Shown here in pieces: positions 20,195 to 38,413 of a DNA stretch of 55,933 nucleotides (positions are counted from its first letter, which is position 1; every line of letters begins with the position of its first letter). The translations under genes were made by a program, and so were the position numbers. A model generated the notes under the pieces. The model saw only the letters and a list, made by a program, of their open reading frames with translations, searched no databases and had not been told where the DNA came from. The stretch is taken from assembly GCA_903825645.1 (NCBI GenBank), contig CAIKBL010000015.1:1-55933 (forward strand). Reading direction: 5' to 3'. The DNA comes from an uncultured Pseudomonadota bacterium. Its GTDB lineage: Bacteria; Pseudomonadota; Gammaproteobacteria; Ga0077536.

Positions 20195-20962
20195 CGCCCG
20201 CGGGTTAACGCTTCTCGCAGAGCAGGCGCGAAGCGTTCAACTGGGGCCGCTTCGTCCCCACGTCGCACCTGGGACGCTCGCTAATCAAGCGCGCGGATCT
20301 GGTGGTGCCGCTCGTGTCTCCCAAGAAACTTCCCGCCCGACGCCATCAGCAGGCGCAAGAAGCCCGGCTCACCGGAGGAGCGCGGCGTTGCCCTGTGACA
20401 TAGCGCAGACCGGCGCGAGTCCAAAGGCATCGTCGATGTCACGCGTCGTTCGAACAAAGCGGCGATGCGCATCCGCCATTTCGCTGCGGCACGCACGCAG
20501 CAGATCCGTTCAAAGTCGTAACCGCGGCAGCGGCGTCTACGACGAACGACGTTTCATTTTGTGGTTCGCCGTCGACTTCGAGGCAGCCCACATCACCGGC
20601 TATTTGCCACCGCGGACTGGGACCGTCGCCAGTCAGGGTCGTCTCGAATACCGCCTCGCGTGTGCCCCTGGCGCGCCGATCTCCCGCGAATAAATAATCA
20701 AATTTAACCCGCAACAAAGATCACTCAACTCTTCAGACATCACTTTAACTGTCTAGTATTTTTACACTCTCCGGCGTGCCTCCGTTATCGCCATCATCGA
20801 CTTCATCCCAAAAACCGTGTTTTAGCCGCGTCGCACTAAAAACAATTTAATTTTTCGTTTAATTTTTTTTCATTGCATCTAAAAAAAATAAGAACCGACC
20901 CGGAATTTAGTTATGAATTACACGTACTAAAAATAAGTAAAAAAACGCATATCCGCCTTGTT
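20195..20962. other. Intergenic stretch turning AT-rich
   Basis: From 20195 to about 20700 the DNA is GC-rich with only short frames (for example 92 codons on the minus strand at 20439-20717) and no recognised domain. From about 20700 to 21120 it turns strongly AT-rich with many A and T runs, unlike all the neighbouring sequence. That half contains the regulatory sites listed separately. Confidence 0.5.
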
Positions 20963-20979
20963 TGTCAAATTTTTTTACA
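20963..20979 (+). promoter_or_regulatory. Putative enhancer-binding site upstream of the PEP-CTERM gene
   Basis: TGTCAAATTTTTTTACA, a TGT-N11-ACA dyad with half-sites TGTnAA and TTACA. It lies 130 bp upstream of the GG of the sigma-54 type promoter, the usual distance for a bacterial enhancer-binding protein. The same arrangement occurs at 35071-35087. Confidence 0.5.
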
Positions 20980-21106
20980 GGTTTTATCGAAAAAAATAGA
21001 AACATTCCCGGTTTTTCACGTCTGGACGCCCGGATTAATCGCTCAGGTCGAGCTGATTTTTTTTTAACACATTGATTTTTAAAACGCTTGTTTGCTTCAA
21101 ATGAAG

Positions 21107-21123
21107 TTGGCCCGGTTTATGCG
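21107..21123 (+). promoter_or_regulatory. Sigma-54 type (-24/-12) promoter of the PEP-CTERM gene
   Basis: TTGGCCCGGTTTATGCG has GG and GC exactly 10 nt apart, the defining spacing, with TTGGC at -24 and TGC at -12. Transcription would start near 21134, giving a ~50-nt leader and excluding the ATG at 21126 as a start codon. PEP-CTERM genes in several bacteria are known to depend on RpoN with the PrsK/PrsR system. Confidence 0.62.
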
Positions 21124-21185
21124 TTATGGAACTTACCGAAACAACGCGTCCACAACTTAAAGCGAAAGCGGCAAGGAGATTTACG

Positions 21186-21809
21186 ATGATGAAGACCAAT
21201 GCAAACATGAAGAAAAGTCGTCGCCTGACGAGACACTTGAACCTGTTAGTACCGCTGGCAATTTTTTCTTTCTCCGGTGTCGCGGCCGCCGGGCCCTGCA
21301 CCAGCGTGCTTGGAATGTATAACGGTGGGCAGGGCTTAACCGATTGTAACGTCACGATCACCGTGACTAATTCCGGCGCAAGCGCCGTCAATAACAGTCA
21401 AAACCCGTATGACGGCGTAGAAGACCAACTCATCGGCGTCTTCAACAACAGCAGCAAAATCATTAACAGCATCGGATTGAGCGGATCAGGCATATTTGGG
21501 TTTGAGGGTGATGGAATCGATATTTATCTCACCGGTTTCGTCCAGAATTCATCGAACCCGGACGGCACGACGTACGGTGGCGCTAATGGCAACTTCAGCG
21601 TAGTCGATGTCAATAATGGGACGGTGTTCTTCGCCGGCGGGATTGCCCCCGGCGGGACTGACTATTTCTCGTTAGAAGGAGCGCCAAACACAGCGAGTTT
21701 CAGCATCACGGGTGTCAACGGTGGCACAGTCCCGGAACCCGCCAGCATAGCCCTGCTGGGACTCGGCCTTGCCGGATTAAGTCTCAGCCGACGAAAGTCC
21801 CGACAATAA
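21186..21809 (+). CDS. PEP-CTERM sorting domain protein
   Basis: 207 residues from ATG 21186, preceded by AAGGAG with 7-nt spacing. N-terminal signal peptide (HLNLLVPLAIFSFSGVAAA). The mature part has the repeat-like blocks of one PEP-CTERM subfamily: ITVTNSGASAVNNS, YDGVEDQLIGVFNNSS and IFGFEGDGIDIYL. The C-terminus is a complete sorting signal: VPEPAS, a hydrophobic helix (IALLGLGLAGLSL) and a basic end (SRRKSRQ). Such proteins are exported, then cut and processed by an exosortase (EpsH/XrtA), usually in strains that make an extracellular polysaccharide matrix. No exosortase is in this window; the glycosyltransferase at the left edge could be linked. Surrounding composition is much more AT-rich than the chromosome average. 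Confidence 0.93.
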   Translation: MMKTNANMKKSRRLTRHLNLLVPLAIFSFSGVAAAGPCTSVLGMYNGGQGLTDCNVTITVTNSGASAVNNSQNPYDGVEDQLIGVFNNSSKIINSIGLSGSGIFGFEGDGIDIYLTGFVQNSSNPDGTTYGGANGNFSVVDVNNGTVFFAGGIAPGGTDYFSLEGAPNTASFSITGVNGGTVPEPASIALLGLGLAGLSLSRRKSRQ

Positions 21810-21832
21810 AATAAGACAGCACAGCGTCTGAA

Positions 21833-21864
21833 GGTCACACCGCGCCACAACGGCCGGTGTGGCC
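21833..21864 (+). terminator. Terminator-like hairpin after the PEP-CTERM gene
   Basis: GGTCACACCG at 21833-21842 pairs with CGGTGTGGCC at 21855-21864 (10 bp with one G-T pair, 12-nt loop), 23 nt after the stop. It is followed only by TTAAGT, so the T tract is poor. Confidence 0.5.
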
Positions 21865-22028
21865 TTAAGTCCCCTCGTGATAGCGATCGGTCGGAGGTGC
21901 CATATCCCGTCGCGCGTGCGACACCCGGTCTATCAGGCTGCTGCGATTCAACCCTCAAATGCCGACGCGCGAAAATCAGCGGCCAGCGGCATAACAGAGT
22001 CGCTTGGCGCCGAAGCAAGGACGCCACG

Positions 22029-22535
22029 CTACAACACGACAGGCTCGGCGGAAAGTTCGTTTTCGCCCATGATTTGCGCCGGGAAGGTCTGGGTGAGATG
22101 TCGCGCCACCGCGCGAATGCCAGCAACGACACCCTCGACGTAATCCGCATCCCGAAAGGCCGCTTCCATATCCCGACAGATCTGTTCCCAAGCGATCTGC
22201 GGAATCTTGGCACTGATGCCGCGATCTGCCACAATCTCCACGGCACGGTCCGCAAGCAGTAGATAAATCAGCACCCCGTTGTTATGTTCGGTATCCCACA
22301 CGCGCAGTTCCGAAAATAACACGATGGCCCGCTCGCGCGCCGTCTGTCCAGCCATCAAATGCATGCCCGTCAAGGCACCTTCGACCACGAAGCAGATCTC
22401 GCCAACGTGTGCGGTCTTGCCTTCGTTAATAGCGGCTTCGATTCGCTGCAGGCTTTTTTTAGAGAAAAGGCGACGGACATGCCGATGGCTTAGCGGGAGA
22501 TGTCGCAAGGCGCGTCTGAAGTTCACCACTACCAT
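22029..22535 (-). CDS. TPM domain protein, second of the LemA operon
   Basis: 168 residues. The ATG at 22535 overlaps the stop of the upstream gene by 7 nt, so the long upstream extension of this frame is not used. A TPM (YgcG-type) domain with no signal peptide: SKKSLQRIEAAINEGKTAHVGEICFVVEG, then RAIVLFSELRVWDTEHNNGVLIYLL and AVEIVADRGISAKIPQIAWEQIC. This cytosolic or membrane-associated TPM version commonly follows LemA and the secreted TPM protein in proteobacteria. The family is linked to photosystem repair in plants and has an uncertain phosphatase role; the bacterial function is unknown. Last gene of the three-gene lemA unit. Confidence 0.85.
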   Translation of the reverse strand: MVVVNFRRALRHLPLSHRHVRRLFSKKSLQRIEAAINEGKTAHVGEICFVVEGALTGMHLMAGQTARERAIVLFSELRVWDTEHNNGVLIYLLLADRAVEIVADRGISAKIPQIAWEQICRDMEAAFRDADYVEGVVAGIRAVARHLTQTFPAQIMGENELSAEPVVL

Positions 22536-23368
22536 CGACCCGACGCGCCACCGCCGCCGAAGCTGCCTCCGCCCCCGCCAAACCCACCGCCCAAGCCACC
22601 CCCAGCACCAAAGCCACCGCCTAACAGCCATCCCGATCGCACCAAACCACCACTTGACGTAAAGATGAGGGTAAAAACGCCTGCCATAAGCGCAATGAAG
22701 ATAAGGCCGGAGAGTGACCAGGCGATCAGCGCAACCAGCGCACCGGTGAAGAGCGCGCCAGGCAAGCGCCCCAATACCCTCCGGGCGACAGTGCCGATGA
22801 CCAACGCCAACAGCAGAATGATCGGAAACCATTGGCGAAGATTCGCCCCCGCTTCGTTGATTGCTGGGTTGGGTGTGGGTAAGACCTCGCCGCTGGCCAC
22901 GCGCAGGATGTGTTCAAGACCGGCGACGATTCCGCCGTAAAAATCGTTCCGTTCAAAGCGGGGAAGTATGTCCTCGCTGATTATTCGTTTGCTAACGGCG
23001 TCGTTGAGGGTTCCTTCCAATCCATAACCCACCTCAAGGCGCACCGCATGATCGCCTTTGGCTACTAACAGGAGCGCGCCGTCGTCGATTTTTTTTCGTC
23101 CAACTCGCCAGTGCTCAGCAACGCGCAGTGCATAGGCTTCGATAGTTTCTGGTGCAGTGGAGGTAACCATGAGCACCACTATCTGCGTTCCTCTGTGCGC
23201 CTCGAAGGCCTCCAGGGTCCGCTCCAGCGCTATTCGCTGAGGCGGAGAGAGGCTCGCCGTTTGGTCGATGACCCGTGCGTTCAGCGGGGGCACCGGGATC
23301 TCAGCCAGGCCCCCACACGACCACCCGACACTCACCCCGAGCAAGAGCACCTGTAGGAAGATCCTCAT
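22529..23368 (-). CDS. TPM domain (YgcG family) membrane protein
   Basis: 279 residues. Signal peptide at 1-22, then a TPM domain about 28-150: ARVIDQTASLSPPQRIALE, GTQIVVLMV, IDDGALLLVAKGDHAVRLEVGYGLEG and SKRIISEDILPRFER. Two or three membrane segments follow at about 180-245, and the protein ends in a glycine-rich tail (GGGFGGGGGSFGGGGASGRW), the usual end of this family. The TPM domain should lie in the periplasm. The start shares a 4-nt ATGA overlap with lemA and the end overlaps the second TPM gene, so all three are translationally coupled. Confidence 0.9.
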   Translation of the reverse strand: MRIFLQVLLLGVSVGWSCGGLAEIPVPPLNARVIDQTASLSPPQRIALERTLEAFEAHRGTQIVVLMVTSTAPETIEAYALRVAEHWRVGRKKIDDGALLLVAKGDHAVRLEVGYGLEGTLNDAVSKRIISEDILPRFERNDFYGGIVAGLEHILRVASGEVLPTPNPAINEAGANLRQWFPIILLLALVIGTVARRVLGRLPGALFTGALVALIAWSLSGLIFIALMAGVFTLIFTSSGGLVRSGWLLGGGFGAGGGLGGGFGGGGGSFGGGGASGRW

Positions 23369-23997
23369 TTCGAACGTGCGCTGTCGGATGTTGCACCGGG
23401 GGGTGGCAAACCGAAATCAACCTGCGGTGGCTTGGCGATCAGCGTTTCGTTCTCTACGGTAAAATTGGGTTTGACCACATAACCGAACGCGTTCGCGATT
23501 AAATTGGTGGGGAACGAGCGCACCGTCACGTTATATGCCTGTACGGCGTTGATATAACGATTACGCGCGACCGCGATGCGGTTCTCGGTACCCTCCAGCT
23601 GTGCCTGCAAGTCACGGAAATTGGCGTCCGATTTCAATTGTGGGTACCGCTCCGAAACCATCAACAGATGCGATAGCGCGGTTGATAGTTCGCCCTGTGC
23701 GGACTGAAATCTCGCGAGCGCTGCAGGGTCCTCGGTTAAGGCAGGTGTCGCCTGGAGCGTCCCGACGTGCGCACGCGCGTTGGTCACGCCGAGCAAGACT
23801 TCCCGCTCCTGCGCGGCGAAACCTCTGACGGTGGTCACCAGGTTCGGCACCAAGTCGAAGCGGCGCTGATACTGATTGATGACCTCGGACCAAGTTGACT
23901 TAATCTGCTCGTCGGTGCGTTGCAGGGTATTGTACCCGCAGCCCCCGAGCCCTGCCGTCGCCACGAGTAACAACAGGGTCGACCAAATTTTCTGCAT
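23365..23997 (-). CDS. LemA family lipoprotein
   Basis: 210 residues from ATG 23997, with GGAG 7-10 nt upstream. The frame is open further back, but the lipoprotein signal begins here: MQKIWSTLLLLVATAGLGGC with a lipobox LGGC and Cys20. The body is the LemA helical fold: LQRTDEQIKSTWSEVINQYQRRFDLVPNLV, then the long paired helices to NAFGYVV. Bacterial LemA lies with TPM proteins in a conserved cluster; its molecular role is unclear. First gene of the lemA-TPM-TPM unit. Upstream, 23998-24303 holds nothing I can identify. Confidence 0.92.
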   Translation of the reverse strand: MQKIWSTLLLLVATAGLGGCGYNTLQRTDEQIKSTWSEVINQYQRRFDLVPNLVTTVRGFAAQEREVLLGVTNARAHVGTLQATPALTEDPAALARFQSAQGELSTALSHLLMVSERYPQLKSDANFRDLQAQLEGTENRIAVARNRYINAVQAYNVTVRSFPTNLIANAFGYVVKPNFTVENETLIAKPPQVDFGLPPPGATSDSARSK

Positions 23998-24303
23998 GTT
24001 TCGTCTCCGGTTAATGAACTGAAAATTCGCGGCTGTCTGTGCTACATGGGGGTGTCCGGGTCCGTTTTCAATGCCGCTGTCTTCGCGCGTGGGCATCGAG
24101 ACGACATCGATGTCCGCGCGGACATGAAGGCGAGTGCAGGTTCGGGGAAATCGCGTCAGCCACCCGGGCACAAGCCGATGTCCGATGGCGATGCGAGTCG
24201 TTGCTGAATGCGATCGCCGCGGGCGAAGACGCGGTGGACGCCATGGCCCCGTAACGCGCGCGGCACATGTCATCCGCGGCGGCTTGTGGTCTATACTCCG
24301 GCC

Positions 24304-24684
24304 ATGAACGGTTTTTTTATTCGTCTACTCATCTCCGCTTTTTCGCTCTGGGTGGCGTCGAAACTTGTGCCGGGCATGGCTTTTGATAGCACCGGGACCT
24401 TGTTGGTTGCCGCGTTTGTGCTCGGTTTCGTCAACGCGTTCATCCGCCCCCTGTTCATACTGCTGACATTACCGTTGACGCTGATGACACTCGGGATCTT
24501 CCTGTTGGTAATCAATGGCCTCATGATGCTGCTCGTCTCCGCGCTCCTGCCCGGATTTGAATTACACGGGCTCCTGCCTGCCATCCTGGCTTCCCTGGTG
24601 TCCGGCTTTGCGGGTTGGTTTGCGACCAGCCTCATCGGTCCCACCGGGCGTATTGAAGTGATCGTCGCCCGCCAGCGTCCGTAA
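24304..24684 (+). CDS. Phage-holin-like 4-TM membrane protein (YvlD/DUF360 family)
   Basis: 126 residues from ATG 24304; the frame upstream is open but not homologous. Four hydrophobic segments: FFIRLLISAFSLWVASKLV, LLVAAFVLGFVNAFIRPLF, LMTLGIFLLVINGLMMLLVS and AILASLVSGFAGWFATSLI. NAFIRPLFILLTLPLTLMTLGIF is the family hallmark. These small inner-membrane proteins are not phage-encoded despite the family name; in Bacillus the relative belongs to a cell-envelope stress operon. Transcribed alone, divergent from the lemA unit. Confidence 0.88.
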   Translation: MNGFFIRLLISAFSLWVASKLVPGMAFDSTGTLLVAAFVLGFVNAFIRPLFILLTLPLTLMTLGIFLLVINGLMMLLVSALLPGFELHGLLPAILASLVSGFAGWFATSLIGPTGRIEVIVARQRP

Positions 24685-25340
24685 CGTGCCCGCTGCTTTA
24701 TGAATGCTTCGGCCTGTGGGGTGGCAAGGCCGGTGCCATCGCCCGCGATCCCGATCAGTCCGCCAGAAGGGTTGCCCACCCGCTGAAGCATCGCGTCCGA
24801 TCCGCGCACCTTGCCGTCATTTCGCTGAAACGGGTGATGTGCGCGCGCTTAAGGTCCCGACGACACTTTTGATCAGGGCGCGCTGCTCGAAAATCTGCTC
24901 GAGCGCCCGGTTCGCGTCGACAGCCTCTCGGCACTGCGCGGTGGAAAACACGCCGGGCACTACCCGCGGTCCTGCACGCGGAAAACCGGTCGGCCGCACG
25001 CAGCGTATTCACGGCCGCGTCTATCGTCGCGAAGCGTTGGATTCGACCCGCCGCACATGACGATACCTAGGCGGTCAAAGCGCCACGCCACGCGGTGATT
25101 AGAGGATGACGAAAGACCCTCGGGGAGCCGAGAATCGGCGCGGGTGATCCGTGCGAGTTTCAAAACCGCCGAAGCCTTCAGGCTAAGGGTACCCGTCGGG
25201 GGCGCGAGTGCTTTGCCGCACCCACCTGCGCTCCCGGATCTTCAAGGCGACTCATGCAAAGTCGCGGCTCAGTGATCCGGGCACCGCCCCGAACAGCGTG
25301 CCGGATGCCCGCGGCACGCCCCGCGAGTCGGGAAATACCG
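24685..25340. other. Gene-poor stretch
   Basis: About 650 bp. Overlapping frames of 60-170 codons occur on both strands, but none has a recognisable domain or a ribosome site at a plausible start. It may be remnants of lost genes. Confidence 0.4.
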
Positions 25341-26288
25341 CTACGGATCGCCGCGCGGTAACGTATCGCCACGCAACACACTGCGATGCAACGCGGCATA
25401 ACCCGGCACGCAGGACTCGAGATGTGTCTCAACCCGGGCATGGGTAGCGGGCAAGGCATGCCAGGGAATACTGGGCCACGCGTGATGTTCAGCGTGATAG
25501 TTCATGTTCCAGATAGAGAATTGGACAAATTTTGTCGTCTCCACACTGCGTGTGCGGGCCAAAATACTCCCCTCGGAAGGCAGTCCGGTATGCTCGGTGG
25601 CGAGCCAAAGTGCCTGATACACATGCGTGAACCAAGCCGCAAAAATCAACATTAGACCGCCCGGCAACACGAAGAGCGCCGCGAACAGAAACCCCACCCA
25701 GCAGGCGAGTACGACTCTGGACTCGAACACGAGCTGAGCAGAATTGTCTATTTGGCCGGTCCATGGCCCCAACCGAGCCCACTCAGCCGGGGACTTGATG
25801 GCGAAACCAATGAGTAAACGATACTTCAGCATGAAGATCCCATAACCGCTCATCGCGAGCGCCCAGCGCAGGATCCCCGAAGGCCAGACAGGAACGAGAT
25901 CTCCCCCACCCAGCTCCGGATCCTTTTCAGGGTCTTGCGTGAAGCGATGGTGCTGGTAATGAAAAGTGCGGTAGACCGAAGGCGACATCCCGAAAAATAT
26001 CCCGCTGATCCAGGCGCCGATGCGGTTTCCAATCTGGGAACGGAAAGCAGTCCGATGGGTGCATTCATGAAAAGGGGAAAAAAAGCTGTTCCAAATCCAG
26101 GCGAGAACCAGCGCGAGCGGGCCTGCGAGCCAGGGATATCGCCCCCACCAGACGAGGGTCGTGGCGACCAGGAAGAATACGACCAGCTGCCCGGTCAGTC
26201 GCAGCAAAGAGGGCAAAGTCCGCCGCTTCATCAGCTCCTTCAAATCAGCCAAGGCAAGCAGCGGCCTCAGCTCGAATTGCTCGTCCAT
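25341..26288 (-). CDS. Membrane fatty acid desaturase
   Basis: 315 residues. The three histidine boxes that bind the di-iron centre are present: HECTH at 74-78, HYQHH at 110-114 and HAEHH at 265-269, with hydrophobic segments between them (about 33-70, 88-105, 140-165 and 190-225). It should introduce a double bond into an acyl chain of membrane lipids using O2 and electrons from a ferredoxin or similar donor. There is no fused ferredoxin or cytochrome b5. It lies 91 bp downstream of a PAS-like gene on the same strand and may be cotranscribed with it. Regiospecificity cannot be read from the sequence; a related carotenoid or alkane oxidase is less likely given the box spacing. Confidence 0.87.
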   Translation of the reverse strand: MDEQFELRPLLALADLKELMKRRTLPSLLRLTGQLVVFFLVATTLVWWGRYPWLAGPLALVLAWIWNSFFSPFHECTHRTAFRSQIGNRIGAWISGIFFGMSPSVYRTFHYQHHRFTQDPEKDPELGGGDLVPVWPSGILRWALAMSGYGIFMLKYRLLIGFAIKSPAEWARLGPWTGQIDNSAQLVFESRVVLACWVGFLFAALFVLPGGLMLIFAAWFTHVYQALWLATEHTGLPSEGSILARTRSVETTKFVQFSIWNMNYHAEHHAWPSIPWHALPATHARVETHLESCVPGYAALHRSVLRGDTLPRGDP

Positions 26289-26379
26289 GCCTGTCGCTCC
26301 AATTTTTTTTGATGAGATCGGGACGATAGTACGTCGAAGCGATCGTTCAGCCTACGGGTAACGACGGGACCACCCGCCC

Positions 26380-27129
26380 CTATGAACCTTGGCGCGGGCT
26401 GTAGTAAGCCGCACACACGCCGCACATACCGTGCGTGATACTGATCCCAGATATCGGCCACGGTGTCGTCAGCCAGTCCCAGCGATCCTCGAACACGGCA
26501 TGCTTCACCCGGCGACAGTACGCGCACTGCCGAATCCATTCGTCATCGAAAAGATAGTGCTCCAGGCCGACTCGCGGAGATAGGGCGTCATAACGGGTCT
26601 CAACCCGCGTCGAATTGATAATGAGCCAGCCGCCGCCCGCCGGCAGCACATAGATGTGCATCACGAAGCGACGAAATATGTCCGGACTTGAGCAGTCGTA
26701 TTCGAAGTCGCGAGGATGCAGCGAGAGCTCGGGGCTCGGTGTCTGTTCGATCAGGGCGCGATAAAACGGACGCGCGGTGGGCGCGATGGCATCGAGATAG
26801 TTACGCCCCATCCAGATCTGCGGGGACGGCCCCGGTCCGTTCGCGCCCGCAAACAACACCCACGCCGGATTCAGGTACCCGATAGTCAAATCCGGCCAAA
26901 GCCCGATCACGGATTGAGGATGCTGCTGAAGCTCACCTAGGCTGAAACGACGCCCAAGCTGTGCTTCAAACCCTGCCGCACACCAGTTCGTTTCCGCGCC
27001 ATCTAACGCGTCTAGATCTACTGCCACCGGCGTACCTGCCGAACGCGCTCTCGGCCACGGCGCAGGCTTTGCTCGCCGATGAAGAGATAGCGACACCCCG
27101 TGACGCCGGCGGGCGGATCGAACCGGCAC
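26380..27129 (-). CDS. PAS-like protein with C-terminal four-cysteine motif
   Basis: 249 residues at most; a GTG at 27027 would give a 215-residue product and excludes a low-complexity basic N-terminus. A PAS-like core covers about 60-170 (VIGLWPDLTIGYLNPAWVLFAG, then the IWMGRNYLDAI and FYRALIE helices, and GGWLIINSTRV). The C-terminal part has CAYCRRVKH and, 35 residues on, HGMCGVCAAYY: the C-x2-C ... HG-x-C-x2-C pattern found at the end of many bacterial PAS signalling proteins, which may bind a metal or act as a redox switch. There is no output domain. The desaturase gene follows 91 bp downstream, so a role in sensing for lipid adaptation is possible but speculative. Confidence 0.65.
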   Translation of the reverse strand: MPVRSARRRHGVSLSLHRRAKPAPWPRARSAGTPVAVDLDALDGAETNWCAAGFEAQLGRRFSLGELQQHPQSVIGLWPDLTIGYLNPAWVLFAGANGPGPSPQIWMGRNYLDAIAPTARPFYRALIEQTPSPELSLHPRDFEYDCSSPDIFRRFVMHIYVLPAGGGWLIINSTRVETRYDALSPRVGLEHYLFDDEWIRQCAYCRRVKHAVFEDRWDWLTTPWPISGISITHGMCGVCAAYYSPRQGS

Positions 27130-27626
27130 TGACGACGCTTCGCGGGCTCCGCTAGCGGTGAGGATCTGGGCTGCAGCACGCGCTGGGCGAGTTGCCGATC
27201 GGTTGCTGTGCCGAGGGGTCGTTTACCGCGCCGCATAAAGTTTGTTCACCGCGCATTAGGCCTTAGGGCGCTCGCGCCGAGAAGGCGCTGGCGGCGGGTT
27301 CTGCAATCGGAGTCGCCGCCCAGTGGCCGATCTGCAGATCGGCTGCGCGCGAGGTGCTGATCTGAAATAGCGTGGCGATTCATCCGCTTAAATTATCACG
27401 ACATCGGGAATTTGATAACCTACGGCGGGCACGCGGGTGCAGATCCCAAGCGTCCCCGAGACCGTCACCCCCTGCCGCACCTCGGCACTCGGCCCGACGC
27501 CAGCGGCCGCTCCGACCCGGCAACGCCTGCCGCGGTCCCGGTAGATGACTGCCAGCCCCCGCGCGCGGCGAACGTTCCCCCGAAATCGGGCGCCGCCCAG
27601 GCCACACGACGCTCGCCCGATCGCTG
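27130..27626. other. Gene-free stretch between the PAS-like gene and kinase 2
   Basis: About 500 bp. Short frames on both strands, no recognised domain, no hairpin with a T tract. Confidence 0.4.
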
Positions 27627-28916
27627 TCATTGCAGCGCCTGCTCGGTGGTCACCGACAGGCGATGGATAAGGGTGCGCAGAAAAACCTTGAGAAAGCGGA
27701 CCTGACAATTCAGCGACACCTGATGGATGACCGCGGCATTTAACTTCAGCAACGAGGTCGGCTGTCGTGCCACGATTGTTGCGGTGCGACTCGCGTGAGA
27801 CAGGTAACCCATCTCGCCGAAACAGTCTCCCGTCTGCAGATGGCATAATGCCTGGCCCTGCTTGCGGACCGTCACCTCCCCGGCGACGATCACAAAAAAG
27901 GCGTCATCCCGCTCCCCCTCCACCACGATTTCGGCACCGCTACTGACCTGCTGCCAAACGCCGGCATGCAGGATCTCCCAGATTTCAGACTCGGGAAATC
28001 CGTGAAAAAACGCCAGTTGCTGGGTCACCCGAAACTTTTCCCGCTCGCTGGTGTTCTCGCGCGGTTTGTCTAATAAATTGGCAAACGCCTTGCTCAAATC
28101 CGCGGCCAGCTCACCGCCCATCTGATAACGCTGAGCACGATCTTTCGCCAGCGCCTTCGCCACGATACTGGCAAGCTCATCCCCTATCCCACTCCGGACT
28201 TCCTGAAGTGGGATAGGGGTGTCATTGAGAATACGTTGCAGGAGGCGTGAGAAAGTCTCCGCGGCAAACGGGTGACGGCCGCTCAGCAACTCATACATCA
28301 CCAGACCGAGCGAAAAGATGTCGGTCTGGTTGGTCAGCGTTTCTTCCGTAATCTGTTCGGGCGACATGTAGCGAGGTGAGCCCGCGAGTCCCAACGGCAG
28401 CGTGGCGGTCGAATCAACTCGGCTCATATGCGCAATGCTGAAATCGCCGATTTTGATGTCCTTCTCGACTGTCAGGAGAAGGTTCGTCGGCTTGATATCT
28501 CGGTGCACTACCCCTTGTCGATGCGCGTAATCCAGCGCTTTGGCACATTTGAAGACGATCTCCACCACCTTCTCGATCGGGAGCAGATTGTCGCCGCGGC
28601 AGAACGGCTTTAAGGTCGCGCCCCCCTCCACGTACTCCATGACGATATAGCAGATCTCAGCGTCCACACCCGCGTCAAAAATGCTAATGATATTGGGGTG
28701 CGTCAAACGGCCCGCCGTATGGGCTTCGTTAAAGAACATGCGGCGATAGCGCGCGCCGGATGCCTCATCGTGGAGCTGTTCGGGATGGGCCACTTTGAGT
28801 GCGACCGGACGGTCTAGAAAAGGATCATGTCCCAGGTAGACGATGCCCATGCTGCCACGGTTGATTTCCCGCAGCACAGAATATTTACCCAAACGCTCAG
28901 GAATGTCGCAGCTCAT
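27627..28916 (-). CDS. Ser/Thr protein kinase with C-terminal cyclic-nucleotide-binding domain (kinase 2)
   Basis: 429 residues, cytosolic. Kinase domain about 10-280: glycine loop NRGSMGIVY, Lys41 (VALK), HRDIKPTNL with Asp140, and DFS at 158-160 instead of DFG; SPRYMSPEQ follows. The metal-binding Asp is kept, so activity is possible, though the Gly-to-Ser change may shift activation. The cNMP-binding domain is about 300-420 with FFVIVAGEVTV, TGDCFGEMGYL and SRTAT, keeping Glu, Arg and Thr of the phosphate-binding cassette. It resembles kinase 3 more than kinase 1 (shared CRGDNLLP-like and HRQGV blocks), suggesting a later duplication. Divergent from pgi. Confidence 0.88.
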   Translation of the reverse strand: MSCDIPERLGKYSVLREINRGSMGIVYLGHDPFLDRPVALKVAHPEQLHDEASGARYRRMFFNEAHTAGRLTHPNIISIFDAGVDAEICYIVMEYVEGGATLKPFCRGDNLLPIEKVVEIVFKCAKALDYAHRQGVVHRDIKPTNLLLTVEKDIKIGDFSIAHMSRVDSTATLPLGLAGSPRYMSPEQITEETLTNQTDIFSLGLVMYELLSGRHPFAAETFSRLLQRILNDTPIPLQEVRSGIGDELASIVAKALAKDRAQRYQMGGELAADLSKAFANLLDKPRENTSEREKFRVTQQLAFFHGFPESEIWEILHAGVWQQVSSGAEIVVEGERDDAFFVIVAGEVTVRKQGQALCHLQTGDCFGEMGYLSHASRTATIVARQPTSLLKLNAAVIHQVSLNCQVRFLKVFLRTLIHRLSVTTEQALQ

Positions 28917-29187
28917 GTCAGCGCCGGAAACTCGCGGTACTATAGGGCACAGACTGCTCCAAGTTAGGCTCGGTCGACGCGCAACTGCGCTGGGAAAGCG
29001 GACAATTCGCGAGGATCACCCGCAAAAAACTGTCCCTCTACGGGGATGACGTGTCGACTAGGCGGGGCGAGGCCCAAGCCCGCGCGTTCAAGACAATCGC
29101 GTACCTAGCGCTTAGCGGCAGCAACAACACGGGACTTGCGGCGATTGCCGACCGTTTGCCAAATCAGTCACAAAACCGGGAGTATTT
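28917..29187. other. Divergent promoter region of kinase 2 and pgi
   Basis: 271 bp separating divergent starts. I see no convincing promoter elements or hairpins. Confidence 0.35.
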
Positions 29188-30819
29188 ATGACAGGGACGC
29201 ATAACCGGCTGCGCGCCGAAATCACGACCCTCGCCAATGGTTGGCGAACCCGACGAATCGACCAGCTGTTTGAACAGGATGGCGCCCGCGCGACTGATTT
29301 CACCCGGGAGGCGGCCGGCCTTACCCTCGATTTCAGTAAAAACCGCCTCGACCGACACACGCTCAAACTCCTCCTGGAGCTTGCCGAGGCACACGGGCTG
29401 CGTGGGCGAATCGCGGAGATGTACGCCGGTCACCCGATTAACAAGACGGAAGGACGGGCCGTACTCCACGTCGCCCTCCGCGCTCGGCGTGATCACGATT
29501 TGCAGGTGGCCGGCGTCAAGATTGGGGTGGAAGTGGAGACGGTCAAGACGCGCATGCGTGAAATCGTCGAGGCCCTGCATCACGGGGCTTGGGTCGGGGC
29601 GACGGGTCTGCCCCTCACGGATGTCGTGAACATCGGCATCGGCGGCTCGCACCTGGGCCCTTTTCTCGCTTGCGAGGCCCTGCAGGATGAACATCCCACG
29701 CCCGTGAAGGTCCATTTCGTGTCCAATGTGGACGGCGGCGATATTGGCCGTTGCCTCGCCGGCCTCACCCCGGCGCGCACGCTTTTCATCATCGCCTCTA
29801 AATCATTCACGACCCCGGAGACCATGTTGAACGCGCACACCGCGCGACAATGGCTGCAGGCGACGCTGCCGTCAGAGGTCGATCTCGGTGCGCATTTTGT
29901 GGCGATTTCGGCCTGTCCCGATCGGGCGATCGACTTTGGCGTGCCCGCGACCCGTGTCCTGCCCATGTGGGACTGGGTGGGTGGTCGCTTCTCGTTATGG
30001 TCCGCCATTGGTCTGCCGATTGCGCTCGCGATCGGGATGAACCACTTCGAACATCTACTGGCCGGGGCTGAGGCGATGGATCGCCATTTTCACACCGCCG
30101 AGTTGACGGACAATCTGCCCGTCCTGCTCGCGATGATCGGGATCTGGAACACCAACTACCTCGGTGCCGAGAGTTTCGCCGTCGTCCCCTACGAAGATCG
30201 CCTCGCCCAGTTACCCGCCTATCTCCAGCAACTCGAGATGGAAAGTAATGGCAAGCGCGTAACCCTCAACAATGAAGCGGTCGAGAGCCATACTGCCCCC
30301 ATCCTGTGGGGTGGCGTTGGGACCAACGTGCAGCATGCCTTCTTTCAGTTACTCCATCAGGGCACCCGTCTCGTGCCAGTCGATTTCATCCTGCCGCTCC
30401 ATAATCCGTTCTCACCCCCTGGACATCACGACATGCTGGTCGCCAATTGTCTTGCGCAGGCAGAAGCACTCATGACGGGTCGCACCGCAGAGAGCCTGGA
30501 GGTGCGCGGCGACACCGCGGCAGATATCGACTTGCCCCTGCACCGCGCGACGCCCGGCAACCAACCCAGTAACCTGCTGATGTTCGACTCCCTGACGCCG
30601 CACACACTGGGCGCCCTGCTCGCCCTTTATGAGCACAAGACTTTCGTCCAGGGCGTTGTGTGGGACATCAATTCGTTCGATCAATGGGGTGTCGAACTCG
30701 GCAAAGCGCTGGCCCAAACGCTCCTCGACGAAATGGCGAGTGGCCAAGTAGGCACCCATCATGACGGCTCGACCCGTGCGGCCCTCTCGCGCTATCTGAG
30801 GCGACGATCGCCCGACTAA
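29188..30819 (+). CDS. pgi: Glucose-6-phosphate isomerase
   Basis: 543 residues, normal for the bacterial long form. Interconverts glucose 6-phosphate and fructose 6-phosphate in the cytoplasm. Both family signatures are present: DWVGGRFSLWSAIGL, and the C-terminal ALYEHKTFVQGVVWDINSFDQWGVELGK. GIGGSHLGP (phosphate-binding) and the catalytic region GGVGTNVQHAFFQLLHQGT are also seen. It is flanked on both sides by minus-strand kinase genes: divergent from kinase 2 and overlapping the end of kinase 3 by 4 bp tail to tail. A GGGAG ribosome site lies about 5 nt before the ATG. Confidence 0.96.
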   Translation: MTGTHNRLRAEITTLANGWRTRRIDQLFEQDGARATDFTREAAGLTLDFSKNRLDRHTLKLLLELAEAHGLRGRIAEMYAGHPINKTEGRAVLHVALRARRDHDLQVAGVKIGVEVETVKTRMREIVEALHHGAWVGATGLPLTDVVNIGIGGSHLGPFLACEALQDEHPTPVKVHFVSNVDGGDIGRCLAGLTPARTLFIIASKSFTTPETMLNAHTARQWLQATLPSEVDLGAHFVAISACPDRAIDFGVPATRVLPMWDWVGGRFSLWSAIGLPIALAIGMNHFEHLLAGAEAMDRHFHTAELTDNLPVLLAMIGIWNTNYLGAESFAVVPYEDRLAQLPAYLQQLEMESNGKRVTLNNEAVESHTAPILWGGVGTNVQHAFFQLLHQGTRLVPVDFILPLHNPFSPPGHHDMLVANCLAQAEALMTGRTAESLEVRGDTAADIDLPLHRATPGNQPSNLLMFDSLTPHTLGALLALYEHKTFVQGVVWDINSFDQWGVELGKALAQTLLDEMASGQVGTHHDGSTRAALSRYLRRRSPD

Positions 30820-32102
30820 GGACTCCTCAGCGGCACCGCCATTTCAATCGTCTTCGTTAAGCGCTCGCTCAGGGCGCGCAGAAATCCGCGGCTGAAGCGG
30901 AGTTGTCCCTCGAGCGAGACTTGCTCGATGCGGGTCGCATCGACCCGCATGAGGATCACCGCCGCATCCGCGGTGACGGTCGCGATGCGCTTCGCTTTGT
31001 TGAAGTAACTCATCTCACCAAAGCATTCGCCGGCGGCGAGCTGCGCGAGCACGTGACCGCGCTTGGTCACCGTCACGGTGCCAGATACGATGATGAAAAA
31101 AGTATCATCGTCTTGCCCTTCTTCGATGATGGTCGCGCCGGCGACCGCGTTCCGCCAGAGACTGGCGCGGAGCAACTCCCAGATTTCAACGTCGGGAAAT
31201 CCTCGAAAAAAAGCCAGATCTTTAATTCGTTCGAATTTGTCGCGCATCGGTATATCTTCCGGTGGCCGCGCCAAATGCGTGAAGGCCACACTCAAATCCG
31301 TCGCGAGATCAATGCCCATGCGATAGCGCCGCGCGGGCAATTTCTCCAGACACCTGGACACGATACTCACCAGCATCGGCGGCAAATCTGGCCGGTAGTA
31401 CTCAAGTGGCGTCGGCGGCTCGTTAAGAACCCGGTACATGAGGTTGGAGAAGCTCTCGCCGCCAAACGGATGGCGTCCGGTGAGGAGCTCATAGAACACC
31501 ACACCTAAGGCATACAAATCAGTTTGGTGCGTGATCGGGTCTTCCTGAAGTTGTTCGGGGGACATGTAACGAGGCGATCCGACGAACCCCATCGCCAAGG
31601 TCTGACTCAAATCGACGTGATTGATGTGCGCAATGCTGAAATCGGCAATTTTCACGGCCAGCTCGGGCGTCAGCAAAATATTAGAGGGCTTGATATCGCG
31701 GTGAATGACACCCTGTCGATGGGCATAATCAAGCGCCTTGGCACATTGGAAGATGATCTCGACGGCTTGGTTCATCGGCAACAGATTGTCGGCCCGACAG
31801 AATGTTCGGAGCGTGTCGCCGTTTGGAATCAGCTCCATGACGAGATAGCATTTCTCGTCGTCCACGCCCGCATCAAAAATATCGAGGATGGCGGGATGAC
31901 GAAGCATCCCCCCTGCTTGAGCTTCGTTGAAGAACATCTTACGGAAACGTTCATTCAAATCACCGCCCGTCAGACCCTCGGCGCTCGCCACCTTGACGGC
32001 CACGGCGCGCTGCACATCCGGATCATAGGCCGCGTACACCACACCCATGCTACCCCGCCCGATTTCGTGCCTGATTTCATACTTTCCGAGCTTAGTCAGC
32101 AT
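30816..32102 (-). CDS. Ser/Thr protein kinase with C-terminal cyclic-nucleotide-binding domain (kinase 3)
   Basis: 428 residues, cytosolic. Glycine loop GRGSMGVVY, Lys37 (VAVK), HRDIKPSNI with Asp136, DFS at 154-156, SPRYMSPEQ. The C-terminal cNMP-binding domain (about 300-420) has AGECFGEMSYF but RIAT where the other two have R-S/T-A, so a residue that contacts the cyclic phosphate is Ile here; ligand binding or specificity may differ. Its end overlaps pgi by 4 bp tail to tail. Closest relative in the window is kinase 2. Confidence 0.88.
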   Translation of the reverse strand: MLTKLGKYEIRHEIGRGSMGVVYAAYDPDVQRAVAVKVASAEGLTGGDLNERFRKMFFNEAQAGGMLRHPAILDIFDAGVDDEKCYLVMELIPNGDTLRTFCRADNLLPMNQAVEIIFQCAKALDYAHRQGVIHRDIKPSNILLTPELAVKIADFSIAHINHVDLSQTLAMGFVGSPRYMSPEQLQEDPITHQTDLYALGVVFYELLTGRHPFGGESFSNLMYRVLNEPPTPLEYYRPDLPPMLVSIVSRCLEKLPARRYRMGIDLATDLSVAFTHLARPPEDIPMRDKFERIKDLAFFRGFPDVEIWELLRASLWRNAVAGATIIEEGQDDDTFFIIVSGTVTVTKRGHVLAQLAAGECFGEMSYFNKAKRIATVTADAAVILMRVDATRIEQVSLEGQLRFSRGFLRALSERLTKTIEMAVPLRSP

Positions 32103-32443
32103 CTGCCCACCCGTCAGCCCTCATTCTGGAGAAGCCAAGGATACGCCTTCACCCCGGGCTTTTCTGTGGTGCGTCGCGCCTCGGGGATGCGGAGCTGCGG
32201 CAGCTATACGTCCGGAAAAACTGGACTCGGTCGTCTTATACCGCGTGGTTGACCGTCGCCGTCGCCTGGATGAGACGACGGTGGTGTCGGTTGCCATGCG
32301 CGAACACGGTGCCGCTCGCAGCAAAGCGCGTCGCGTCATGCCTTCGGACAGGACGGGTGCCACCCGGCTGTTGCGCGCCGCTAGGCGGGGGCCTTCAAGG
32401 CGGTGATACTGAGCTCCCACTAACGATGAACGGGGAATAGCCC
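32103..32443. other. Divergent gap between kinase 3 and maeB
   Basis: 341 bp holding the promoters of both genes. Short frames only; no recognisable elements apart from a GGGGAA ribosome site just before maeB. Confidence 0.4.
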
Positions 32444-34723
32444 ATGGACGATCGGCTGAACCAAGACGCGCTGGAGTACCATGAGCTACCCCGTCCCGGA
32501 AAAATAGAAATCACGCCCACCAAGCCGCTCGCCAATCAACGCGACCTGGCACTCGCTTATTCACCAGGCGTTGCGGGGCCTTGCGAGGCGATCGCGGCGG
32601 ATCCGAGCGCCGTGGCGCGCTACACCAACAGAAGTAATCTGGTTGCGGTGATTACCAATGGCACCGCGGTGCTGGGGCTCGGGAACATCGGTCCGCTGGC
32701 GGCCAAGCCCGTCATGGAAGGCAAGGCTGTGCTCTTTAAGAAATTTGCTGGTATCGATGTTTTTGATATCGAGATAGACGAGCACGATCCAGACCGACTG
32801 GTCGAGATCATCGCGAGTTTGGAGCCGACCTTCGGCGGCATCAATTTAGAAGACATCAAAGCGCCCGAGTGCTTCTTCATTGAGCAGAAGCTGCGCCACC
32901 GACTGAAAATTCCGGTGTTCCATGACGATCAACACGGTACCGCCATCATCGCCGCCACGGCCATCCGCAATGGCTTGACGCTCACGGGCAAAGAGATAGG
33001 GGAGGTCTCGTTAGTTGTCTCCGGCGCGGGAGCGGCCGCGATTGCCTGTATCCGCTTGCTCGAATGCATGGGCCTGCCGCGGGCACATATGCTGGTCGTC
33101 GACAGAGACGGCGTGATCTATCAGGGCCGCGGGACGAAGATGGAGGCGCACAAACTGGAATATGCGCGCGAAACCCCGCTGAGGACCTTGGCCGAAGCCA
33201 TCGTGGGGGCCGATATCTTCCTCGGGCTTTCCGGCCCAGGCGTTTTAACCGGGGCCATGGTCGCGACGATGGCACCCAACCCCCTGATTCTGGCGCTCGC
33301 GAATCCCACCCCGGAGATCATGCCCGAAGAGGCGCTGGCCGCCCGTCCCGATGCGATCGTCGCGACCGGTCGCTCTGATTATCCAAATCAGGTCAACAAT
33401 GTGCTCTGCTTTCCGTATATGTTCCGCGGCGCACTCGATGTCGGGGCTACCACGATCACCGAGGCGATGGAGCTCGCGTGTGTCGAGGCGCTGACGGCCC
33501 TGACGCTGCAAGAGCCTTCCGAGATTGTGCAGGCTGCGTACACAGGCGAGACGCTCCGGTTCGGCCCGACCTACCTCATCCCTAAGCCTTTTGATCCCCG
33601 TCTCATCACCACGATTGCCCCGGCGGTAGCCCAAGCGGCAATGGCCAGCGGCGTCGCCACGCGACCAATTGCGGATCTGGCCGCCTATCGCGCGCAACTG
33701 AGCAAATTCGTCTTTCAGTCGGTGCTGCTCATGAAGCCCGTGTTTGCGCGAGCCAAACACCAGGTGAAACGGCTGGTCTACGCCGATGGCGAGGAAACGG
33801 TCGTGCTGCGCGCGGTGCAGACGGTGGTTGATGAGGGACTCGCGCGACCCATTCTCATCGGGCGCCCGTCGGTGGTGGAGGCGCGCATCACCAGTCTCGG
33901 TCTGCGGCTGCAAGCCGGGACTGATTTCGAGATCGTCAATCCCGAGAGCGACAGCCGCTTTCAGGCCTACTCCACCGCTTATTTCAATAAAATGCAACGG
34001 AAAGGCGTGACACTCAGTGAAGCACGCAGCGTGGTGCGCACTAATCCGACGGTGATTGCTGCCCTGCTGGTGCTGCTCGGCGAAGCTGATGGCCTGTTAT
34101 GTGGGCTGACCGGCGCCTACCGTGAGCACCTGCAACAGCTGACCGATCTGATTGGCCTGAGCGAGCCCGACGGCGTACTGGCGGCCCTCAATGTGCTGGT
34201 GCTCAAAAAAGGGACGTTCATCATCGGGGACACGCAAGTCAACGCCGAGCCAGACGCCGTCCAAATCGCGGCCATTGCGCTGGCCGCGGCCGAGCGCGCC
34301 CGGCGTTTCGGGATGGAGCCTCGGGTGGCGCTCCTGTCCGCCTCCAATTTTGGGGGGGGAGACGATCTGGCGGCCATTAAGATGCGCGCCGCCCTGGCGC
34401 GCCTCAAACAGTTGGCGCCGACCCTGCAGGTCGACGGCGAAATGCAGGCGGACGCAGCGCTGTTACAGAAGGTGCGTGCCGCGGCCGTCAACGATTCGCC
34501 GCTGATCGGCGAGGCCAACGTGCTCATCATGCCCTCGCGGGACGCGGCGAATATTGCGATGCACCTGTTGACGGTGTTGGGTGAAGGGGTGCCGATCGGC
34601 CCCCTCCTGCACGGCCTGCGCGCACCGGCCCATATCCTGACCGGATCGACCACGGTACGGCGGATTGTTAACCTGAGTGCGGTGGCCGCCGTCGATGCCC
34701 AGAACGCCGTGCACATCGATTAG
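32444..34723 (+). CDS. maeB: NADP-dependent malic enzyme, MaeB type (malic enzyme-phosphotransacetylase fusion)
   Basis: 759 residues. The N-terminal ~430 residues form malic enzyme: [41 protein letters not shown], the metal-binding [11 protein letters not shown] and [12 protein letters not shown] regions, [12 protein letters not shown] and the nucleotide-binding [15 protein letters not shown]. The C-terminal ~320 residues form a phosphotransacetylase-like domain ([42 protein letters not shown]) that in MaeB is regulatory, sensing acetyl-CoA, and does not make acetyl phosphate. It oxidatively decarboxylates malate to pyruvate, supplying NADPH. Single-gene unit; a strong terminator lies 265 bp downstream. 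Confidence 0.94.
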
Positions 34724-34852
34724 CACCGCAGGCACCCCGGGCTCTCGTCTCGCTATCCCGGGTGCGATCGCGACGGGTGTCGCCACTGCGCGAGATTAAC
34801 GTCGGGGTGATGTCTTCACCGCCAGATAGCGCACAAGGCGACAGCCGGTAGG

Positions 34853-34893
34853 GCAAGATCGGACACAGGCCGGCCCGCCTGCCCGATCTTTGC
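34853..34893. other. Long nested hairpin downstream of maeB
   Basis: GCAAGATCGG (34853-34862) pairs with CCGATCTTTGC (34883-34893, one bulged T) and encloses CAGGC/GCCTG with a 6-nt loop. A second hairpin, CTCCGG/CCGGAG, lies at 34925-34944. There is no T tract. It may be a processing or decay-blocking structure on the maeB message, or part of a small RNA ending at the terminator at 34989. Confidence 0.45.
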
Positions 34894-34988
34894 AACGATC
34901 ACACTTCCCCGCTTTTTGGGGATCCTCCGGGCCGTAATCCGGAGCGCGATCGCCCGGCCCGTGACCCAAACCCAATAAATGTGCACCC

Positions 34989-35008
34989 CCCCGCTTCAGC
35001 GGGGTTTT
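34989..35008 (+). terminator. Rho-independent terminator
   Basis: CCCCGC (34989-34994), loop TTCA, GCGGGG (34999-35004), then TTTT and GCTTT. It is the best intrinsic terminator in the window. It is 265 bp beyond the maeB stop, so it serves maeB read-through or a short transcript in the gap. Confidence 0.8.
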
Positions 35009-35070
35009 GCTTTATGGGGTAACGCTATTTCAGCGCGGGTTAAGGATGACCATACAAAATATGGGATTTA

Positions 35071-35087
35071 TGTAAAGCCTGCTTACA
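35071..35087 (+). promoter_or_regulatory. Putative enhancer-binding site upstream of the dihaem peroxidase gene
   Basis: TGTAAAGCCTGCTTACA is a dyad with 5-bp arms TGTAA/TTACA. It lies about 120 bp upstream of the -24 GG of the promoter at 35205. It shares TGTnAA-N6-TTACA with the site at 20963-20979. Confidence 0.52.
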
Positions 35088-35204
35088 AACGCGCGGCCGT
35101 TTATACGGGGTTTTTATTATGAATTTTACAGGGCTATTTTTGGATTGAGCCGGGTTCTTGAATTAACCCGAACGTTATTAGTGGGTTGGCGGATCAGCAG
35201 AACC

Positions 35205-35221
35205 TTGGCACGAATAGTGCA
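35205..35221 (+). promoter_or_regulatory. Sigma-54 type (-24/-12) promoter of the dihaem peroxidase gene
   Basis: TTGGCACGAATAGTGCA matches the RpoN consensus TTGGCACG-N4-TTGCA at all but one defined position, with the required GG-N10-GC spacing. Transcription would start near 35232, about 50 nt before the ATG at 35282. Confidence 0.8.
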
Positions 35222-35281
35222 TTGGGAACACACCTGTCTCGCGAATAGTCGTCCGGCAGCTACCAAATTAAGGCGATTAGA

Positions 35282-36730: not shown

Positions 36731-37276
36731 GGACTCCATTGGGGACGGCCCGAGTTTCGCTTTCTTGACCATGATCCATGGATTACGAATGCAGTGAACA
36801 GGGTCGTTCCCGCGTTATCTGATGACAGACATTAGTCCAAGATAAACGCCATTTTTCGGCCCCGTCCAAGTAGTTTCCCCGAGTCCGTCACATACGCTGG
36901 GTGGGCATGGCATCAGGAAGAAGCGTGCCGTTCACACTGACTTGTCTGCCGGATCGATCTGGTGCGCTTACGGTGTGGCCCGTCGGTGGGCTGTGCCACA
37001 CATAAGCCCCCAGCGGGAGCTGGCATGCGCGTGGAGGACCCATTCAGCGTCGCAAAAATGCGCAAAACTCAATCGGTGGTCGTACTCGTCGCGTGGCCCT
37101 AGCTGCGGGATGTGAAGCGCGGCCACCTGCGCATCGCACTTTATCCGCCAACACTGCACAAACGCCAGTGCTGCACCCTGATCCGGCAGGGCCTCAAGAT
37201 CTGGCGCGTGGTCCTGCGCGGCAGATCCCGTTCCGCTGTTCGGCGCAGCCTGTGAAAGGCGCGATGTGCAGCGCCG
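36731..37276. other. Gene-free stretch upstream of the SCO gene
   Basis: About 550 bp. A minus-strand frame of 117 codons (36968-37321) has no recognised domain and would run through the promoter of the SCO gene. I see no other signal. Confidence 0.4.
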
Positions 37277-37307
37277 TTGTTCGCCCTTCGTGCACCTTCG
37301 ATATAAT
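37277..37307 (+). promoter_or_regulatory. Sigma-70 type promoter close to the SCO start
   Basis: A perfect -10 hexamer TATAAT (37302-37307) with a partial -35 TTGTTC (37277-37282) 19 nt upstream. Transcription would begin about 7 nt after the -10, at or next to the GTG start at 37314, so the message may be leaderless. Confidence 0.45.
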
Positions 37308-37313
37308 GCGTCG

Positions 37314-37976: not shown

Positions 37977-38413
37977 AACATGCCGCAAATAAGCAGGCGG
38001 GATGGCTTTTGGTGTTGTGGCTGTTAAGCCCGCTGGTACCCGCCTGCGACGGCCTTACCGGGGCAGATCTCTGGATCCGGGAAGGACCACCCGGCGCCAC
38101 CGTACTGGCCGGCTTCGGACGGTTGATCAACCGATCACGTGAGACGCTGCAGGTATCGGAGATCCGTAGTACGGACTTTAAACTCGTGATGCTCCACGAG
38201 ACGGTCCTGCAGGCTGGACAGGCGCACATGGTGGCGCGTGATCGGTTGTTGTTAAGTCCGGGGGAAGTCCGCGCATTGTCTCCCGGCGGCCTTCACCTGA
38301 TGCTGATGCAACCGACCGTGTCACTGCGGCGCGGACAATCCGCCGTCGTGACTTTTACCTGCGGCAACACACAAAATTCGATGGTATTTTCGGTCCGGTC
38401 TTCCGATCAGTAA
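37973..38413 (+). CDS. Periplasmic copper chaperone PCuAC (DUF461)
   Basis: 146 residues with an N-terminal signal (WLLVLWLLSPLVPAC; the Cys could be a lipid site but Pro at -2 is atypical). The Cu-binding motif of the family, H-x10-M-x21-H-x-M, is matched exactly: LHETV, then HMVARD, then LHLML. PCuAC takes Cu(I) in the periplasm and, with SCO, assembles the CuA centre of cytochrome oxidases. It is translationally coupled to the SCO gene upstream; the psd gene follows within 40 bp. The terminal oxidase genes themselves are not in this window. Confidence 0.92.
   Translation: MKHAANKQAGWLLVLWLLSPLVPACDGLTGADLWIREGPPGATVLAGFGRLINRSRETLQVSEIRSTDFKLVMLHETVLQAGQAHMVARDRLLLSPGEVRALSPGGLHLMLMQPTVSLRRGQSAVVTFTCGNTQNSMVFSVRSSDQ

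Follow-up and report, generated by a model that had tools for sequence, protein, structure and literature searches.

The closest described control system for PEP-CTERM genes is that of Haft et al. (2006; PMC1569441), in which the PEP-CTERM box, a 17-nucleotide (nt) motif ending in TTTACA (motif 1), lies upstream of a -24(GG)/-12(GC) motif (motif 2) before PEP-CTERM genes. The spacer between the 3'-most copy of motif 1 and motif 2 is 32–92 nt; motif 1 is sometimes repeated, a few sites precede other genes, and the motif is phylogenetically tied to the regulator PrsR. RpoN dependence is described for pepA of Aquincola in the available portion of PMC9850573, and five predicted PEP-CTERM targets of a predicted PEP-CTERM regulator from Desulfovibrio were enriched by DNA-affinity purification and chip hybridization (DAP-chip), according to the accessible part of PMC3333781. 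Here, we analyze a window of 55,933 bp, the whole of contig CAIKBL010000015.1 (hereafter C15) from the 4.13-Mb, 90-contig genome of an uncultured gammaproteobacterium (GCA_903825645.1). It contains two distant genes, one for a PEP-CTERM protein and one for a di-haem peroxidase, each preceded by a dyad TGTnAA-N6-TTACA and a -24/-12 (RpoN, or sigma-54) promoter.

The initial annotation had proposed that these two genes form a common regulon, which is well supported by the sequence comparisons reported below, while the box itself has already been published (PMC1569441) and is not new. We consider it quite probable that both genes belong to the PrsK/PrsR-RpoN regulon and that the peroxidase gene gained this control through duplication of a whole promoter cassette. 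The regulon is known; what is new is the upstream region of the peroxidase gene, a duplicated cassette that carries two putative activator sites.

The promoter cassette of the peroxidase gene

Direct reading recovered all four elements initially annotated, a dyad and a -24/-12 site for each gene (Table 1), and the distances given for them hold: 130 bp for the PEP-CTERM gene and 120 bp for the peroxidase gene, measured between the final base of the dyad and the leading G of the -24 GG. The dyad pattern occurs in the window at these two places only (0.02 expected; 0/100 shuffles with two), as does TTGGCNCGNNTNNTGC at the two promoters (0.08 expected; 1/100 shuffles with two), the latter pattern having been formulated post hoc, once both promoter sites were known. 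By a looser score, 12 -24/-12-like sites in the window reach at least 19 of 22, including both promoters.

For the peroxidase gene, the dyad and the sigma-54 site were correctly described, but a second conserved site, ending in TTATGAATTTTACA, had been overlooked. The ends of the two putative activator sites, A and B, are 42 bp apart. Site A belongs to the subclass TGTAAAG-N4-CTTTACA; as 17-nt motifs matched to the text of PMC1569441 and not to its logo, site A ends in CTTACA and site B in TTTACA. The spacer between site B and the -24/-12 site is 75 nt, within the published range if site B is a copy of motif 1, and that from site A is 117 nt. A matrix built from nine other cores, the peroxidase core itself being excluded, gives the core at 35069–35135 a score of 81 bits; among the 111,734 positions of the window, the runner-up has -21.

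A BLAST search of the whole genome with positions 34960–35290 returned copies of the cassette upstream of PEP-CTERM genes in contigs C12 (copy C12a; 79% over 206 query bases, E 3.7e-42), C55 (71% over 241 bases, E 2.1e-24) and C87 (71% over 156 bases, E 5.6e-11), and, in C69, ahead of a gene whose secreted product lacks PEP-CTERM (74% over 133 bases, E 4.8e-15). Shorter cores were found at C12:12668 and C10, and a core at the end of C7 may supply the start that the C69 copy lacks. Six cassette copies have one orientation and an offset of 134–136 bp to the -24/-12 site. Four copies of the cassette (C12, C15, C69, C87) share the -24/-12 spacer GAATAG, which the promoters with TGTCAA-type boxes lack.

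The homology extends beyond the binding sites: between the peroxidase upstream region and C12a, 61/75 spacer positions and 40/52 leader positions agree, and in the final stretch ahead of the start codon only 2 of 8 do. The match to C12a ends at 35273, 8 bases before the peroxidase ATG; the other three stop earlier, at 35221 (C55), 35223 (C87) and 35250 (C69). Further upstream, the terminator-like stretch is identical at 23/25 positions with C55 and 22/25 with C12a, only 11/25 with C87, and at 93% over 29 bp with a C69 copy; between this stretch and site A there is no clear likeness (20/43, 21/44). At the level of the DNA sequence, these alignments establish that the cassettes are homologous through common descent. 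Small secreted proteins that lack PEP-CTERM and are 44–60% identical to the C69 protein (L104) are encoded in C12 (L011), C55 (L010, L022) and at L008 and L019. The location of this family beside several PEP-CTERM genes and cassettes suggests duplication of blocks comprising a secreted-protein gene, a terminator and a promoter.

The two promoters of the window share their elements but differ in architecture: the peroxidase promoter is a two-site cassette, and the site at 20963 is a lone perfect dyad with a longer spacing, 144 bp start to start from its promoter. With the cassette matrix, its best plus-strand placement scores -55 bits and no clear site B of the peroxidase kind was found at the PEP-CTERM gene promoter. 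The spacer of the 20963 site is also outside the published range, so the peroxidase promoter is far closer to other PEP-CTERM promoters of the genome than to that at 20963. For the additional box further upstream (Table 1), no -24/-12 site reaching a score of 17 was found within 330 bp downstream.

Table 1. Positions of the two genes and of their upstream elements in the window
Feature	Coordinates	Strand	Basis
Further upstream PEP-CTERM box TGTCTAGTATTTTTACA, one mismatch	20750..20766	+	genome dyad scan
PEP-CTERM box, presumed PrsR site TGTCAAATTTTTTTACA	20963..20979	+	class of Haft motif 1
-24/-12 (RpoN) promoter of PEP-CTERM gene TTGGCCCGGTTTATGCG	21107..21123	+	direct reading, GG-N10-GC score
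PEP-CTERM protein gene, 207 amino acids (aa)	21186..21809	+	TIGR02595 28.3 bits (cut-off 16), PF07589 33.4 bits (cut-off 20.7)
Terminator-like stretch CCCCGCTTCAGCGGGGTTTTGCTTT	34991..35015	+	hairpin and T-run read from the letters; common to the C55 and C12a PEP-CTERM upstream regions
Duplicated promoter cassette	35068..35273	+	extent of 79% match to C12:274-482, upstream of PEP-CTERM gene
Putative activator site A, dyad TGTAAAGCCTGCTTACA	35071..35087	+	pattern scan
Conserved linker containing CGGGGTTTTT	35088..35112	+	alignment; 16–22 of 25 positions as in three PEP-CTERM promoters
Putative activator site B, ending in TTATGAATTTTACA	35113..35129	+	alignment; TTTACA at 35124-35129
-24/-12 (RpoN) promoter of peroxidase gene TTGGCACGAATAGTGCA	35205..35221	+	direct reading, GG-N10-GC score
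Gene for di-haem enzyme of the cytochrome c peroxidase (CCP)/MauG family, 482 aa	35282..36730	+	PF03150 126 bits; two CxxCH; signal-peptide-like start by eye

Dyad-promoter coupling and the proposed regulon in this genome

The perfect dyad occurs at seven places in the genome, compared with three for a reversed-pattern control. In the scan proposed by the initial annotation, all seven are followed by a GG-N10-GC site with a score of 19 or more out of 22, the start-to-start offsets being 135, 144, 134, 88, 87, 122, and 133 bp. For comparison, a site of this kind lies 80–180 bp downstream of about 1.1% of window positions, and mononucleotide shuffles of the flank of each perfect dyad yielded one in 0–9 of 2000 trials. 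The combined dyad-gap-promoter pattern was observed four times in this genome versus none for the control, and eight times versus two over 58 genomes including this one. The four matches in relatives are located before PEP-CTERM genes (G020; G005, where the frame is split) and before genes for proteins with signals of the twin-arginine translocation (Tat) type, recognized by eye (G004, G013). Both the sites and their genome-wide coupling to -24/-12 promoters are firm as sequence features. A Tat-type signal-bearing protein of unknown family, preceded by paired boxes and an RpoN site, is encoded in three genomes from two genera (C13:20596, L030; G004, L124; G013, L126).

We counted 16 places with a box and a candidate promoter, each of which came from the DNA search or served as a query: C4, C7/C69, C10, C12:274, C12:12668, C13, C15:20963, C15:35071, C21, C26, C34, C40, C55:1100, C55:45151, C80, and C87. 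In line with the suggested association, a PEP-CTERM gene follows at ten of the 16; at C21 it is the second gene. The remainder include the peroxidase (C15:35071) and the secreted protein (C69), as well as the Tat-type protein at C13, followed by a PqqD-like gene (TIGR04353 44.7 bits, cut-off 35). The place at C55:45151 runs on at the end of C1 and leads to a weak acyltransferase relative (exosort_acyl model E 6.2e-5, below cut-off). At C12:12668, a PrsT-like gene is situated about 640 bp past the promoter (TIGR02917 136.2 bits over a truncated stretch of 260 aa, compared with a full-length cut-off of 312.2); downstream of the C80 place, no gene was evident. The C26 gene runs off its contig. 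The start of C26 (L004) and the end of C38 (L014) carry a PEP-CTERM promoter in nearly the same sequence, with a few differences, and represent one place that assembly has split or else two recent copies. The promoter sites are weaker at C10, C34, and C21 (17, 18, and 17 of 22, respectively).

The core model has 14 matches in this genome, namely, its ten training sequences and four others. Two of the latter are significant (C34, E 1.8e-10; C21, E 6e-4), and both precede PEP-CTERM genes; one of E 0.26 is site B of C13, and the fourth, at C42:547-590 on the minus strand, is a degenerate core (E 0.04) near the remnant of a small secreted protein gene and was left out of the census. Six boxes have one mismatch: that at C13 has its own promoter in the census, C15:20750 and C40:106952 are additional boxes upstream of ones already in the count, and C42:25428, C67:17075, and C80:60182 were omitted, as they have no convincing -24/-12 site.

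The presumed regulator and competing explanations

No regulator could be named from the window, but a candidate exists elsewhere in the genome, where a PrsR gene (TIGR02915 683.7 bits, cut-off 502.6) adjoins one for PrsK (TIGR02916 528 bits on a 494-aa part, cut-off 300); the PrsR model is over its cut-off in none of 14 control genomes. We infer that PrsR, an NtrC-type activator, acts on the sites described here. It would bind the upstream TGT(C/A)AA-N5/6-TTTACA dyads and, through looping of the DNA, contact RpoN polymerase at the -24/-12 site, thereby switching on PEP-CTERM exoprotein genes along with a few other genes for exported proteins, the di-haem peroxidase among them. The peroxidase gene would have acquired a duplicated cassette of the kind that appears to drive several PEP-CTERM genes, consisting of two activator sites, the spacer, the -24/-12 site, the leader, and perhaps the preceding terminator. 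Carrying such a promoter, it is probably switched on together with the PEP-CTERM genes by the known control system.

Several observations weigh against this reading. The spacer of the 20963 site, at 127 nt, is beyond the published 32–92 nt (PMC1569441), and that promoter has no clear site B. No box was found for 8 of the 18 PEP-CTERM matches over cut-off in the genome; several of these consist of very short frames or are located close to contig ends, and some of the 18 may be false, because the model is short and exceeds its cut-off in 2 of 14 control genomes. Dyads with two mismatches are as common genome-wide as in the reversed control (125 vs 132), and loose dyads were for this reason dropped as evidence. 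Among the 58 genomes, the strict dyad-gap-promoter pattern is found in only 4 of 22 that are PrsR-positive. Conversely, the 94%-complete genome G005 has a box, a promoter, and a PEP-CTERM gene (C5:15622-15771, L123), and no PrsR was found in it. For Desulfovibrio, PMC3333781 states that a binding motif had not been validated for the regulators of the figure concerned. Finally, six more NtrC-type regulators of our genome match the PrsR model at 315–359 bits, below the cut-off, so another activator is possible.

The last point also favors an explanation that places the two window genes in separate RpoN regulons, with the TGTAAAG-type cassette under a different NtrC-type activator and PrsR acting only on TGTCAA-type boxes. 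The peroxidase dyad does differ from the TGTCAA form at the fourth base, and the GAATAG spacer would likewise set the C12, C15, C69, and C87 cassettes apart. However, both dyad forms occur within single promoters, as in C13, G004, and G013, where site A is of the (T/A)GTCAA type and its partner, site B, of the TGTAA(A/G)G type. In the TGTCAA-type promoters of C4 and C80, site B resembles its TGTAAAG-type counterpart and the offset is nearly equal, and the TGTAAAG form is also found before PEP-CTERM genes and the prsT-like gene. The pairing and the similar site B and offset argue for one activator, most simply PrsR, and we regard separate regulons as unlikely.

Still less probable is that the shared block is a repetitive element, of the repetitive extragenic palindrome (REP) or miniature inverted-repeat transposable element (MITE) kind, which landed before the peroxidase gene without regulatory effect. 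Consistent with such an element, the long cassette recurs within this genome and, with C12a as the query, was not found in 57 relatives, 5 of them of the same genus, save for two matches of about 35 bp; moreover, several copies are at or near contig ends, as repeats tend to be. A stray repeat would, however, account poorly for six copies with one orientation and a near-constant offset to the -24/-12 site, for a best match whose end lies 8 bases upstream of the peroxidase start codon, or for predicted sites that are better kept than the spacer in comparison with C55, C87, and C69 (C12a is alike throughout). Chance likeness of AT-rich intergenic dyads combined with common GG-N10-GC sites, suggested by the loose-dyad counts and by the 12 promoter-like sites in the window, merits almost no credence given the promoter at 7/7 perfect dyads, the leave-one-out score, and the E 3.7e-42 match to a PEP-CTERM promoter; for the peroxidase cassette it is already refuted, and for the lone 20963 site the case against it is weaker, resting on the genome-wide coupling.

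Origin and meaning of the cassette, and comparison with described systems

The combination of box and promoter was not found at the other peroxidase genes examined. Searches outside this genome gave 31 peroxidase homologues, and the upstream regions of 17 were inspected; of these 17, six belong to PrsR-positive genomes (G010, G018 twice, G019, G020, G050) and two to genomes without PrsR (G012, G014). None of the 17 has both a dyad, with up to two mismatches, and a promoter: L136 has a lone two-mismatch dyad, and L138, L069, and L052 have weak promoter-like sites without a dyad. The closest homologue (G018, L050; 60% identity) is instead preceded by a repeated AT-rich TTTGCGAATTATTCTCATTT-like stretch, which we take to resemble a Fur box, and is apparently under other control. 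Because none of the 17 homologues has the box and promoter, duplication of a promoter within this lineage is the probable route by which the peroxidase was recruited. This is the simplest reading of the sequences. None of the five same-genus genomes has the long cassette, but none has a peroxidase match at E <= 1e-20 either, hence no empty site was seen. The exact core pattern had no match in the named GTDB genomes, a set that possibly leaves out the window's own and very near genomes, and a protein scan of the named genomes gave only two distant peroxidase relatives.

The enzyme itself is best described at the family level, as its matches to the MbnH and MauG models are far below the cut-offs (TIGR04039 115 vs 362.85 bits; TIGR03791 68.3 vs 443.85 bits). 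Conceivable roles are the removal of peroxide close to the matrix and the oxidation of proteins that the cell exports. A SCO1/SenC gene starts 0.5 kb downstream of the peroxidase gene and is followed by a PCu(A)C copper-chaperone gene (37266–38413). On the minus strand, positions 30816–32102 encode a protein kinase domain fused to a cyclic-nucleotide-binding domain.

The initial annotation had regarded PEP-CTERM control of a peroxidase as a new link, and for the peroxidase as a target the sequence support stands, whereas control by the box, RpoN, and PrsK/PrsR was already published (PMC1569441). A literature search for PEP-CTERM control together with peroxidases or MauG, and for PrsK/PrsR transcriptomes, found no such link in the titles or abstract openings. 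The PEP-CTERM program has so far been known mainly through proteins with the sorting signal; a haem enzyme for the cell exterior with the same promoter unit suggests that it also covers redox chemistry outside the cytoplasm. The locus further offers a testable case of regulon growth through promoter duplication, not point mutation. A more general picture, in which an enhancer-dependent cassette spreads as a unit and brings unrelated exported proteins under the PEP-CTERM program, and in which the recruited enzyme, related to the protein-oxidizing enzymes of the MauG type, chemically modifies or cross-links co-exported matrix proteins, is a speculation to which we give little weight.

Compared with the system of Haft et al. 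(PMC1569441; texts and not logos compared), our locus has the same motif ending in TTTACA, a -24/-12 site downstream, and PrsR and PrsK in the genome. It differs in the two-site cassette with its 42-bp step and conserved linker, in the di-haem peroxidase target, and in the 20963 spacer (127 nt against a maximum of 92). The DVUA0057 regulon of Desulfovibrio vulgaris, as far as it is covered in the accessible part of PMC3333781, offers a parallel in another organism, with a predicted PEP-CTERM regulator and PEP-CTERM targets alongside several other matches. Aquincola tertiaricarbonis pepA is likewise a PEP-CTERM gene with a mapped -24/-12 start and a predicted upstream enhancer, and the available portion of that account (PMC9850573) describes neither a duplicated cassette nor a peroxidase target. 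Lastly, mobile promoters (Matus-Garcia et al., 2012, as presented in the passages available from PMC9208149 and PMC8049555) are single promoter sequences that occur in several copies before unlike genes. The same holds here, where one non-coding promoter sequence precedes the non-homologous genes for the peroxidase, PEP-CTERM proteins, and a secreted protein; in contrast to the mobile promoters of those passages, ours is a predicted enhancer-dependent RpoN promoter accompanied by activator sites, and it seems to have spread partly with paralogous gene blocks.

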